Made by a program: the position numbers and the translations under genes. This document shows positions 46,553-59,353 of a DNA stretch of 64,000 nucleotides, piece after piece (within the stretch, counting starts at the first letter, position 1; the number at the start of each line of letters is the position of its first letter). This stretch comes from Anaerostipes rhamnosivorans (lineage in GTDB: Bacteria > Bacillota > Clostridia > Lachnospirales > Lachnospiraceae): NCBI RefSeq assembly GCF_005280655.1, contig NZ_CP040058.1, positions 963,001-1,027,000 of the forward strand, written 5' to 3'. Under the pieces are notes generated by a model. That model searched no databases, was not told the origin of the DNA, and saw only the letters and a program-made list of their open reading frames with translations.

Positions 46553-46581
46553 TTGAGAATGCACGCTTCGTCTGATACACT
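46553..46581 (+). promoter_or_regulatory. Promoter of eno
   Basis: TTGAGA (46553-46558), 17 bases, TACACT (46576-46581). Confidence 0.7.
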
Positions 46582-46588
46582 ATAGATA

Positions 46589-46604
46589 GTTAGCGATTGC
46601 TAAC
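46589..46604. promoter_or_regulatory. Operator GTTAG-N6-CTAAC before eno
   Basis: GTTAGCGATTGCTAAC is a perfect 6-4-6 inverted repeat starting 8 bases after the last base of the -10 element, over the expected start site. The same box with the same spacing lies at ahpC (48175). A short GCCCTG/CAGGGC hairpin follows at 46636-46654. Confidence 0.75.
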
Positions 46605-46682
46605 CTACAGTGAATAAATCATGGAGAACTCTTTTGCCCTGTGTTTCGCAGGGCAGAGGGGACACGACAGAAAGGATACAGT

Positions 46683-47966
46683 ATGGATTATTTAGAGATT
46701 GAAAAGGTCATAGGAAGGGAAATTATTGATTCCAGGGGAAATCCTACAGTGGAAGCAGAAGTTCTTTTAGCCGGCGGGACAATCGGACGGGGCACAGCAC
46801 CCAGCGGAGCTTCAACTGGAGAATTTGAGGCGTTGGAATTAAGAGACGGAGATAAGGAGCGTTTTGGAGGAAAAGGTGTGTCCAAGGCAGTTCATAATAT
46901 TAATACGATCATTAACGATACTTTAAAAGGGATGGATGCATCCGATACTTACGCGGTGGACAGAGCGATGATCAGCGTAGACGGAACAAAGGATAAATCA
47001 AAGCTTGGGGCCAATGCGATCCTTGCGGTTTCGATTGCATGCGCAAAGGCGGCATCGGCAGGCCTGGATCTGCCATTATACCGTTTTCTGGGCGGTGTTA
47101 ATGCCAACCGTCTTCCGGTGCCGATGATGAACATTTTAAACGGAGGTGCCCATGCGGCCAACACCGTCGATGTACAGGAGTTTATGATCATGCCTGTGGG
47201 AGCAGAAAATTTCAGGGAAGCACTCCGGTGGTGTACGGAAGTATTCCACGCCTTGGCAGCTTTGCTGAAATCCAAAGGGCTGGCAACCTCCGTGGGTGAT
47301 GAAGGCGGGTTTGCGCCTGACCTTGCAAGTGATGAGGAAGCCATCGAATATATTTTGGAAGCTGTTCAGGCAGCGGGATATGAGCCGGGCAGTGATTTTG
47401 TTCTGGCTATGGATGCTGCTTCCAGCGAGTGGAAAGGCGCGAACAAAGGTGAATATATTCTTCCTAAGAGTGGCAAGAAATTTACCTCAGAAGAACTGGT
47501 GGACCACTGGAAATCACTTTGTGAGAAATATCCGATCAGCTCCATTGAGGATGGATTGGATGAGGAAGACTGGGACGGCTGGAAATACATGACCCAGGAG
47601 CTTGGAGAGAAAATCCAGCTGGTGGGAGATGACTTATTTGTAACGAATACGGAACGCCTTGGAAAAGGTATCAAGATGGGATGCGGAAATTCTATCTTGA
47701 TCAAGCTGAACCAGATCGGTTCTGTGTCGGAGACATTGGAAGCTATTAAGATGGCCCATAAAGCGGGTTACACAGCGGTCACATCCCACCGTTCAGGGGA
47801 GACAGAAGACACGACCATCGCAGATCTCGCTGTTGCACTTAATACCGGACAGATCAAAACCGGTGCACCGAGCAGAAGTGAGAGGGTGGCAAAATATAAT
47901 CAGCTTCTGAGGATTGAAGAGGAACTGGGGGAAAGTGCCGTATACCCGGGAGTCGGAACATTTTAG
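46683..47966 (+). CDS. eno: Enolase
   Basis: A 427-residue glycolytic enzyme converting 2-phosphoglycerate to phosphoenolpyruvate. [17 protein letters not shown] at the N-terminus, the catalytic [10 protein letters not shown], metal ligands in [14 protein letters not shown] and VGDDLFVTN, and the signature [14 protein letters not shown] are complete. ATG 46683 follows AAAGGA. The upstream region carries the GTTAG-N6-CTAAC box, so transcription probably responds to iron or manganese through a DtxR-type repressor, which is unusual for eno. Confidence 0.97.
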
Positions 47967-48004
47967 ACTTCAAATGGTAAAATTCTGAGTTTATCAAATC
48001 ATAA

Positions 48005-48050
48005 AAAACAGAGAGAGATACATATTTTGCTGTATCTCTCTCTGTTTTTT
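48005..48050 (+). terminator. Terminator of eno
   Basis: AAAACAGAGAGAGATACA (48005-48022) and TGTATCTCTCTCTGTTTT (48031-48048), a perfect 18-bp stem ending in a T run. Confidence 0.93.
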
Positions 48051-48108
48051 TCATAAAATTTATCGTTTCGGAGATTCTATGGAGTGAGAACAGTATTTTG
48101 AGTATAAA

Positions 48109-48123
48109 CGATAATAATTCTTA
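48109..48123. promoter_or_regulatory. Possible PerR/Fur-like box upstream of ahpC
   Basis: CGATAATAATTCTTA matches the 7-1-7 Fur/PerR consensus at about 11 of 14 informative positions and lies 15 bases before the -35 element. The surrounding sequence is AT rich, so chance is possible. Confidence 0.35.
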
Positions 48124-48138
48124 TTGTTATTATTGATA

Positions 48139-48167
48139 TTGACCTGAAAACTGGAATCGTATATACT
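48139..48167 (+). promoter_or_regulatory. Promoter of ahpC
   Basis: TTGACC (48139-48144), 17 bases, TATACT (48162-48167). Confidence 0.8.
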
Positions 48168-48174
48168 GCAGATA

Positions 48175-48190
48175 GTTAGTCAATACTAAC
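48175..48190. promoter_or_regulatory. Operator GTTAG-N6-CTAAC before ahpC
   Basis: GTTAGTCAATACTAAC is a perfect 6-4-6 inverted repeat placed 8 bases after the -10, exactly as at eno. Confidence 0.75.
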
Positions 48191-48225
48191 CAATAAGGGA
48201 ATTGAAAATAAAGGAGGACAACAGC

Positions 48226-58273: not shown

Positions 58274-58282
58274 GTCAGATAA

Positions 58283-58316
58283 AAAGGAGGCGCCGGCAAG
58301 GCACCTCCTTTATTTT
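58283..58316. terminator. Bidirectional terminator between GGDEF and DtxR genes
   Basis: AAAGGAGGCGCC (58283-58294) and GGCACCTCCTTT (58300-58311) with one mismatch, flanked by A-rich and T-rich ends. Confidence 0.88.
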
Positions 58317-58669
58317 ACGTGTTTTTTTATAGCTTCAAAGCTTTCTTTGCTGATAACATGTTCGATCCTGCAGGCATCTGCTGACGCAATATCTTTATCC
58401 ACGCCAAGTGTTATGAGCCAGGATGAGAGAAGTTTGTGGCGCTCATAGATCATCTCCGCGATCTCTTTGCCGGACTCCGTAAGATAGATATATCCTTCTG
58501 GGGAAACCGTGATATGTTCATTCTGGCGCAGCTTTTTCATCGCTACGCTGACACTGGACTTCTTGAATCCAAGCTCTGTCGCGATATCCACGGAACGGAC
58601 TACAGGACGTGATTGACTCAGGACTAATATAGTTTCTAAATAATTTTCAGCAGATTCATTTGCATGCAT
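58310..58669 (-). CDS. DtxR/MntR-family metal-dependent repressor
   Basis: A 119-residue regulator. The N-terminal winged HTH reads SAENYLETILVLSQ, then VRSVDIATELGFKKSSVSVAMKKL, and the dimerisation/metal domain includes ERHKLLSSWLITLGV and DACRIEHVISKE with the His/Glu/Cys metal ligands. It lacks the SH3-like third domain of DtxR and is shorter than MntR (about 140). It is divergent from the feo operon and is the best candidate to bind the GTTAG-N6-CTAAY boxes seen at five sites. RBS GAGG lies upstream of ATG 58669. Confidence 0.9.
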   Translation of the reverse strand: MHANESAENYLETILVLSQSRPVVRSVDIATELGFKKSSVSVAMKKLRQNEHITVSPEGYIYLTESGKEIAEMIYERHKLLSSWLITLGVDKDIASADACRIEHVISKESFEAIKKHVK

Positions 58670-58781
58670 GAATTTACCTCATTTCTAATTTTTATATTTT
58701 ATTTAAGCATGAAAAAGTATAACATATTTTCAAAACAACATCAAATTGAGAGTTAATGATAAAAAGTATCAATTGGAAATA

Positions 58782-58810
58782 TTGACTACTAACTGATGTT
58801 AGAATATACT
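58782..58810 (+). promoter_or_regulatory. Promoter of the second feo operon
   Basis: TTGACT (58782-58787), 17 bases, TATACT (58805-58810). Confidence 0.8.
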
Positions 58811-58813
58811 AAT
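58798..58813. promoter_or_regulatory. Operator GTTAG-N6-CTAAT over the feo -10 element
   Basis: GTTAGAATATACTAAT fits the shared box with one mismatch and covers the -10. Two further palindromes overlap it, CTAACTGATGTTAG (58789-58802) and ACTAATTAGT (58808-58817), giving a dense cluster of half sites. Confidence 0.7.
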
Positions 58814-58831
58814 TAGTGAATGGAACGGAAA

Positions 58832-58846
58832 TGATAATCAATACCA
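58832..58846. promoter_or_regulatory. Possible Fur box in the feo 5' leader
   Basis: TGATAATCAATACCA matches the 7-1-7 Fur consensus at about 12 of 14 positions, downstream of the start site. Confidence 0.4.
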
Positions 58847-58864
58847 ATAAAGAAAGAAGGAGAA

Positions 58865-59080
58865 ATGATGCCTTTAACTATGATGAGTGAAGGGGAAGCA
58901 AATGTCATCTGTAAAGTCGGCGGCAAGGAAGAAACCAGAAGATTTCTGGAGAATCTCGGATTTGTAGTGGGCGGGATCGTCACTGTCGTATCTATCATTG
59001 GCGGAAACGTTATTGTGAATGTGAAAGATTCCAGAGTGGCGATCGGAAAAGACATGGCGAATAAGATTATGGTGAACTAA
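58865..59080 (+). CDS. feoA: FeoA-domain protein (first of two)
   Basis: A 71-residue SH3-like protein: KEETRRFLENLGFVVGGIVTVVS then GNVIVNVKDSRVAIGKDMA, the FeoA pattern. RBS AAGAAGGAG. It is followed 12 bases later by a second, different FeoA and then feoB, an arrangement seen in Clostridia where two FeoA proteins serve one FeoB. Confidence 0.9.
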   Translation: MMPLTMMSEGEANVICKVGGKEETRRFLENLGFVVGGIVTVVSIIGGNVIVNVKDSRVAIGKDMANKIMVN

Positions 59081-59092
59081 AAAGGAGAGACG

Positions 59093-59314
59093 ATGAAGAC
59101 GTTAAAAGAAGTTGCATGCGGAAATACTGTGAAAGTGAAAAAGCTGAATGGAGAAGGTCCAGTTAAGCGCCGTATCATGGACATGGGAATTACAAAAGGC
59201 GTAGATGTTTTTGTGAGGAAGGTTGCACCGCTGGGTGATCCTATAGAGATCACAGTGCGCGGATATGAATTATCTGTGAGAAAAGCGGATGCGGGAATGA
59301 TCGTAGTTGAGTAA
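59093..59314 (+). CDS. feoA: FeoA-domain protein (second of two)
   Basis: A 73-residue FeoA: KRRIMDMGITKGVDVFVRKVAPLGDPIEITVRGYELSVRKADA is the best-conserved FeoA wording in the window. RBS AAAGGAGAG. It belongs to the 58865-61791 operon, with a further operator before feoB. Confidence 0.92.
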   Translation: MKTLKEVACGNTVKVKKLNGEGPVKRRIMDMGITKGVDVFVRKVAPLGDPIEITVRGYELSVRKADAGMIVVE

Positions 59315-59337
59315 AAGTTACTCTATTTTACTTATTG

Positions 59338-59353
59338 GTTAGTTAAAACTAAT
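59338..59353. promoter_or_regulatory. Operator GTTAG-N6-CTAAT before feoB
   Basis: GTTAGTTAAAACTAAT lies in the 93-base gap between the second feoA and feoB. A possible promoter, TTGAGT (59307), 16 bases, TACTTA, precedes it, so feoB may also be transcribed on its own. Confidence 0.6.

Follow-up and report, generated by a model that had tools for sequence, protein, structure and literature searches.

A putative DtxR-type half-site operator shared by iron uptake, peroxide defence and enolase genes in Anaerostipes rhamnosivorans

The window and its five boxes

A stretch of 64,000 nucleotides from Anaerostipes rhamnosivorans (positions 963001-1027000 of the single 3.59-Mb contig; "the window" hereafter) was found to carry an enolase gene (eno), the peroxide defence genes ahpC and an ahpF-like gene, a pair of ABC half-transporter genes and the iron uptake genes feoA-feoA-feoB, together with a gene for a putative regulator of the DtxR/MntR family. 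Upstream of these targets lie five copies of a 16-bp box, GTTAG-N6-CTAAY (Y being C or T), which is the subject of this study. All five had been named in a preliminary description of this DNA and were recovered exactly where it had placed them, by direct reading and with zero mismatches: GTTAGCGATTGCTAAC at 46589 (eno), GTTAGTCAATACTAAC at 48175 (ahpC), GTTAGACTGGACTAAC at 52918 (ABC pair), GTTAGAATATACTAAT at 58798 (feoA side) and GTTAGTTAAAACTAAT at 59338 (feoB side). Boxes, predicted promoters and target genes are as follows.

46553..46581, plus strand: predicted eno promoter, -35 TTGAGA at 46553-46558, 17 bp, -10 TACACT at 46576-46581 (direct read; relatives alike)
46589..46604, no strand: putative DtxR half-site operator of eno (exact match; counts among enolase relatives)
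46683..47966, plus strand: eno, clade-A enolase (TIGR01060)
48139..48167, plus strand: predicted ahpC promoter, TTGACC-17-TATACT (direct read)
48175..48190, no strand: putative DtxR half-site operator of ahpC (exact match)
48229..48789, plus strand: ahpC, peroxiredoxin (profile match)
48800..50458, plus strand: AhpF-like reductase (TIGR03143, 748.9 bits, cut-off 687.65)
52918..52933, no strand: putative DtxR half-site operator of the ABC pair (exact match)
52945..54771, plus strand: ABC half-transporter 1, similar to YbtP and IrtA (profile match, PDB comparison)
54714..56519, plus strand: ABC half-transporter 2 (profile match)
58798..58813, no strand: putative DtxR half-site operator in the dtxR/feoA gap (exact match; conserved in relatives)
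58865..59080, plus strand: first feoA (profile match)
59093..59314, plus strand: second feoA (profile match)
59338..59353, no strand: putative DtxR half-site operator in the feoA/feoB gap (exact match; conserved in relatives)
59408..61591, plus strand: feoB (profile match)

The exact motif GTTAGN6CTAAY occurred 10 times in the 3.59-Mb genome, and five of these copies were located inside 12.8 kb (binomial P 1.4e-10 for a stretch that was picked post hoc). Scans that tolerated mismatches stayed below their references, with 37 matches against 72.5 by chance for two mismatches in the window and 46 against 139 for the reversed control for one mismatch on the forward strand of the genome. Only the exact form of the box is informative and relaxed motifs are useless. 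The stricter form GTTAGN6CTAAC was barely more frequent than its reversed control in the own genome (6 vs 4); across 200 genomes of the family it was found 1173 times against 362 for the control, with at least one copy in 186 of the 200. When the spacing between the half motifs was varied from 0 to 20 over 2.0 Mb of sequence around dtxR of relatives, N6 gave 112 matches, a number that includes copies because L051-L090 share sequence with L091-L170 in some genomes, and every other spacing gave 0-3; the everted order of the halves reached at most 6. The preliminary description had left room for a motif of random frequency. Genome-wide, the exact motif was not distributed at random, and a chance origin of the boxes was excluded by the clustering of exact matches, the restriction to N6 and the excess over 200 genomes. 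One relative (G157) showed 43 exact boxes, perhaps borne by a repeat, compared with 0-19 in the other 199 genomes.

The N6 spacing had been read as a departure from the IdeR/DtxR core. This was mistaken, since the classical 19-bp box TTAGGTTAGSCTAACCTAA consists of two overlapping TTAG-N6-CTAA units 5 bp apart and the present box matches one half of it. Such an IdeR half site is described as binding one dimer (PMC10317159, PMC8464063), with an apparent dissociation constant of 78 nM given for one IdeR dimer (PMC8464063). By its spacing the 16-bp box is, as far as sequence can tell, a single-dimer half site of the IdeR type. The double box itself was not found: over 234 contexts the best match to TTAGGTTAGSCTAACCTAA had 3-9 mismatches in 18 positions, with 3 in just 6 contexts, no match with fewer than 3 mismatches was present in loci L051-L170, and none with fewer than 5 was present on the plus strand of the window. 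The 234-site profile was gathered with the pattern itself, and its core is thus fixed by construction. Outside this core the outer base was G rather than A in 81% of contexts, inner position 6 was T in 57% and G in 5%, and no further inner symmetry was seen. An explanation of the rare inner G by a lost Gln43 contact was dropped, since the Q43A variant is described as binding normally (PMC8464063). The putative system here and IdeR/DtxR of Actinobacteria thus have in common the TTAG-N6-CTAA contact unit, a box over the start site (predicted here) and iron uptake targets, whereas the usual actinobacterial operator is the 19-bp double box for two dimers and the units found here are single, with a rare inner G.

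Promoters and genes downstream of the box

At eno the order TTGAGA-17-TACACT is followed by 7 bases and the box, and at ahpC TTGACC-17-TATACT is likewise followed by 7 bases and the box; the identical geometry claimed earlier for the two genes is therefore right. The box would start at about +1 of both predicted promoters. Upstream regions of eno in many genera read TTGACA-17-TATAAT-7-box, and for 28 of 39 eno sites the best-scoring promoter stopped 6-9 nt short of the box, the gap being exactly 7 nt in 18 cases. Farther upstream of eno (46200-46470) there are two near-copies of sequence around cgttcggctcttagaatgc, and an inverted repeat GTTATTCACCACTATT occurs at 46335 on the plus and at 46380 on the minus strand.

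Among 40 loci of relatives, drawn from the better dtxR matches, a box was found within 350 bp before 21 of 24 feoA and 22 of 24 feoB genes (at least 60% identical), and upstream of dtxR in 6 of the 20 loci where feoA was not adjacent. For ahpC a box within 350 bp was found in 11 of 30 relatives; a few others have their nearest box farther upstream, some of these before an adjacent eno. The genes downstream of 201 unique contexts comprised feoB (67), dtxR (65), feoA (56), a DUF3793 group (14) and smaller DUF2325-like (7), Fur-like (6), AraC-like (5) and ABC half-transporter (4) groups; these contexts lie mostly around dtxR, which favours feo genes, and one cluster of 56 open reading frames is an antisense artefact. 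The names DUF3793 and DUF2325 were checked by Pfam on the members from the own genome, and the other group names are readings.

Further boxes in the A. rhamnosivorans genome precede a DUF3793-flavodoxin-DUF2325 gene row and a Peripla_BP_2 lipoprotein gene with a divergent gene read as AraC-like. By manual reading, the box at 892985 stands after a -10-like sequence shortly before an unnamed gene, and the one at 3338291 is apparently within coding sequence; a distance of 326 bp separates the box at 1959009 from what was read as the gene of a NuoE-like subunit. The two ABC genes had been called an exporter. Their function could be siderophore-type import, which is at least as likely as export given the resemblance of subunit 1 to YbtP and IrtA. 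Of the 60 PDB matches listed for ABC half-transporter 1, the subunit that the comparison covered, these two were the top single half-transporter chains; longer eukaryotic ABCB proteins outscored them. The likeness to YbtPQ and IrtAB, siderophore importers with an exporter fold, is thus one of sequence in this subunit.

The inclusion of a glycolytic gene had been noted as unusual, and it was borne out by conservation of the box in many genera. The window eno encodes a full-length enolase (TIGR01060, 674.9 bits, cut-off 300, scored on the open reading frame from 46641). With either GTTAG-N6-CTAAY or ATTAG-N6-CTAAC in the 400 bp upstream counted as a box, 36 of 71 enolases at least 70% identical to the window copy had one, against 1 of 39 below 70%; the reversed motif turned up at 3 of the 71, each time slightly within the gene, and at none of the 39. 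This count took 71 of at least 79 matches at 70% identity or more and 39 among the listed matches below. In a tree of 45 enolases the box-bearing copies fell into one group of 39 (99/97), nine of which were box-free; the box label took 9 changes on this tree, which included just 6 other enolases, some of them long-branched.

What the earlier view lacked was that A. rhamnosivorans has three enolases, of which the window copy alone bears a box, and that this copy is not the one beside a gpmI-like gene. The second enolase immediately follows a gene read as gpmI, whereas the third, a divergent copy near 1766008, stands in a row with a gene read as aldehyde dehydrogenase; neither 3.9-kb locus contains a box. 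Since a box-free enolase adjoins the gpmI-like gene in the same genome, the window eno looks like an iron-switched isozyme. It would differ from other TIGR01060 enolases, full-length as it is, in its apparent control by an iron regulator. Among 35 other genomes with a box-bearing enolase, some of them incomplete, 17 had one enolase match and 18 had two, one second match being a short fragment.

Directly 3' of the eno box follows a 5' leader with a motif of its own and, after it, a predicted hairpin whose sequence varies.

46605..46682, plus strand: eno 5' leader, the conserved motif GTGAATAAATCATG with a predicted hairpin 3' of it (folding and pairing controls; no consensus fold)

Manual reading found the motif upstream of 28 of the 36 enolases that bear a box; of the 35 regions without an exact box, two (L263 and L274, which have box-like remnants) plausibly contain it as well. 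The mean z of folding energy was -3.34 for 32 leaders and -0.98 for 39 clade-B upstream pieces; the 32 were taken from 34 regular-expression matches after two shorter than 50 nt had been dropped, and include three that look false (L186, L194, L279). Pairing probability after the motif was 0.71 in these leaders compared with 0.43 in shuffled sequence. A MAFFT alignment of 16 eno leaders gave a consensus fold with no pairs and so no support from covariation, and the window had 0 Rfam matches over the gathering score. Three weak Rfam matches in 46540-46720 (an L31 leader on the other strand, gltS and a microRNA) were all under their gathering scores and were discarded. The leader is probably structured, a prediction that rests on folding energy and on pairing probability after the motif. 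The exact 13-mer GAATAAATCATGT matched in 82 of the 200 genomes. Among 30 loci inspected (L369-L398), 20 had it where a single conserved gene, unrelated and on the opposite strand, appears to have its start codon, and 10 were mixed. Of the places listed for the 13-mer, five or more are in eno leaders (G116, G177, G138, G175, G112). A role of the motif for other genes was set aside, as no other leader target was recognised in the search, which covered this exact 13-mer.

A second, Fur-like layer might lie upstream of some boxes. As consensus we assumed TGATAATNATTATCA, with up to 3 mismatches allowed, and two such boxes were found in the window.

48109..48123, plus strand: Fur-like box CGATAATAATTCTTA with 3 mismatches, 66 bp ahead of the ahpC operator (consensus scan)
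58757..58771, plus strand: Fur-like box TGATAAAAAGTATCA with 2 mismatches, 41 bp ahead of the feoA operator (consensus scan)

The own eno has only a poor one with 5 mismatches (46528-46542). Across relatives a Fur-like box was found upstream of the operator at 9 of 36 eno, 7 of 11 ahpC, 16 of 56 feoA and 4 of 14 DUF3793 sites (shuffles 2.6-4.5%), and at 3 of 67 feoB sites (shuffles 1.4%). The distance from its start to the operator downstream was about 53-67 bp for eno, ahpC and DUF3793; for feoA, 12 of the 16 cases fell at 40-41 bp. PerR-like boxes were enriched at ahpC (0.55 vs 0.084 shuffled) and not at eno (0.06 vs 0.084), and the ahpC upstream boxes could be either Fur-like or PerR-like. 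With three Fur-family genes in the own genome, double control by a Fur-family protein and DtxR is possible.

The candidate regulator and its rivals

Divergent to feoA-feoA-feoB, as had been claimed, lies the gene of the candidate repressor.

58310..58669, minus strand: 119-amino-acid putative repressor of the DtxR/MntR family with N9, E12, H78, C100, E103 and H104 (domain profiles, alignment)

The protein belongs to this family by its Fe_dep_repress helix-turn-helix domain (PF01325, 44.1 bits, cut-off 26) and its Fe_dep_repr_C dimerisation domain (PF02742, 57.1 bits, cut-off 27). Among the 80 loci retained the closest dtxR was 89% identical, from Anaerostipes hominis. The metal site of the 119-residue protein was placed by alignment to MntR, with a numbering of MntR ligands that we in part assume. 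E12, H78, C100, E103 and H104 were invariant in 114 of 114 distinct orthologues, and position 9 was Asn in 105 and Asp in 9. It scored 33.7 bits against a cut-off of 290 with the NCBIfam DtxR model, lacking the SH3-like third domain (119 amino acids vs about 230), and 86 of 153 and 73 of 138 bits with the MntR models. Met10 and Cys102 are described as raising Fe2+ selectivity, MntR having Asp or Asn and Glu at those places (PMC10317159). The protein shares the Cys-Glu-His ligands of IdeR/DtxR, Cys102, Glu105 and His106 there, and differs from them in its length and in Asn instead of Met as first ligand. With MntR of B. subtilis and E. coli, which include its nearest solved relatives, it shares an Asn/Asp first ligand and a similar size, and it differs in Cys at the Glu99 position, in scores far under the MntR cut-offs and in its iron-gene-like targets. 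By sequence the 119-residue protein is a hybrid of the DtxR and MntR ligand sets whose targets point to iron.

We propose, with a probability of roughly three in four, that the 16-bp box is the operator of this protein, acting as an Fe2+-dependent DtxR-family repressor that would govern iron uptake and one enolase isozyme. The earlier claim of one metal-dependent repressor stands in so far as there is a single operator class with a DtxR-family protein as likely binder; which paralogue binds is less certain, as an Fe-type protein from the suf locus remains a candidate. Several observations weigh against our proposal. No box was found at 35 of 71 clade-A enolases, 19 of 30 ahpC genes and 14 of 20 dtxR genes that are not beside feoA. 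For 17 of the 35 other genomes no enolase besides the box-bearing one was found, and tight repression would harm such cells. Position 9 is Asn, as in MntR, instead of Met, and two of what we take to be the three ancillary ligands of DtxR appear to be missing. Motif number rose only weakly with best-match similarity over the 200 genomes (Spearman 0.21). It speaks for the proposal that boxes were more frequent in the 188 genomes with a DtxR-like match (E 1e-8) than in the 12 without (mean 6.13 vs 1.67 per genome; control 1.81 and 1.75), but this comparison cannot separate paralogues since genomes counted as DtxR-less have no such match at all. What the sequence shows is the boxes with their exact spacing, their placement at predicted promoters, their recurrence before the same genes in several genera and the conserved metal-site residues; binding by this protein, Fe2+ as signal, repression as sign and the enolase benefit are inferred.

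The boxes might instead be bound by a paralogue, with the feo-linked gene a mere neighbour. The suf-linked protein (123 amino acids, near 3141949) is encoded directly downstream of a SUFBD-core gene, is 50% identical to the 119-residue protein and keeps the Asn, Cys, Glu and His ligands, which also counts against our proposal; it is possibly a regulator of iron-sulphur assembly. An MntR-type protein near 1178765 (32% identical), beside a gene read as FeoA-like, is the other candidate, and the genome comparison above does not tell these proteins apart. We consider binding by either rather unlikely, as many relatives have the box in their dtxR-feoA gap, some loci without adjacent feoA have it upstream of dtxR, and neither paralogue's 3.2-kb locus in the own genome contains a box, although their promoters may lie outside these loci. 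A sensor that responds to Mn2+, or to both metals, instead of Fe2+ would agree with MntR proteins as the nearest solved structures (2h09, 6.4e-14) and with Asn at the position of MntR Asp8 and DtxR Met10. Mn2+ gains some weight from this Asn and the apparently missing ancillary ligands, but all 114 of 114 orthologues have Cys where MntR has Glu99 and the targets resemble iron genes (feo, siderophore-type uptake, flavodoxin), so that we regard this, too, as improbable; Fe2+ is favoured by Cys at this ligand place (PMC10317159). Quite improbable, in our view, is that the box works in RNA at eno and ahpC, forming a 5-bp hairpin right where the messenger begins, and not as a DNA operator. It would be transcribed at both genes from the predicted promoters, is a perfect inverted repeat and is followed at eno by the probably structured leader; yet its inner bases show no extra complementarity (0.363 observed vs 0.381 expected, positions 6 and 11, 234 sites), the same box also occurs in the feoA-feoB gap and upstream of dtxR, and its spacing is that of one IdeR half site.

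Proposed mechanism and its meaning

Under our proposal of a DtxR-type repressor, a metal-loaded dimer would occupy a single half site (TTAG-N6-CTAA flanked by G and C) at about +1 when iron is plentiful, and would block transcription of feoAAB, siderophore-type import, the flavodoxin operon, ahpC-ahpF and one enolase isozyme. Once iron runs short the repressor would lose its metal and release the DNA, and the freed genes would yield iron importers, flavodoxin, peroxiredoxin and extra enolase. More enolase during iron shortage might be a gain if it upheld glycolytic flux when iron-sulphur enzymes fail.

A bolder reading, which we put forward tentatively and hold to be somewhat doubtful, is that in Lachnospiraceae one clade of enolase serves iron homeostasis and answers to several controls stacked on one another. 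The Fur-like box 5' of the -35 element, a DtxR half site at +1 and an unclassified structured leader RNA (GUGAAUAAAUCAUG plus hairpin) would jointly switch the step that forms phosphoenolpyruvate by iron, and the whole DtxR regulon would run on single-dimer half sites. Our confidence in this and in the simpler proposal was lowered by the lack of covariation in the leader and by the paralogue as candidate binder.

Among the papers listed from the open-licence PMC literature, none described the motif, a Lachnospiraceae DtxR regulon or an iron-controlled enolase in Clostridia in its title or abstract opening. IdeR half sites in other species, and the role of IdeR there, are named in PMC10317159 as still to be investigated. 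A gut-bacterial family appears to build a whole regulon from DtxR-type half sites, and a central glycolytic enzyme, of which one genome has isozymes with and without the box, is apparently tied to the supply of iron.

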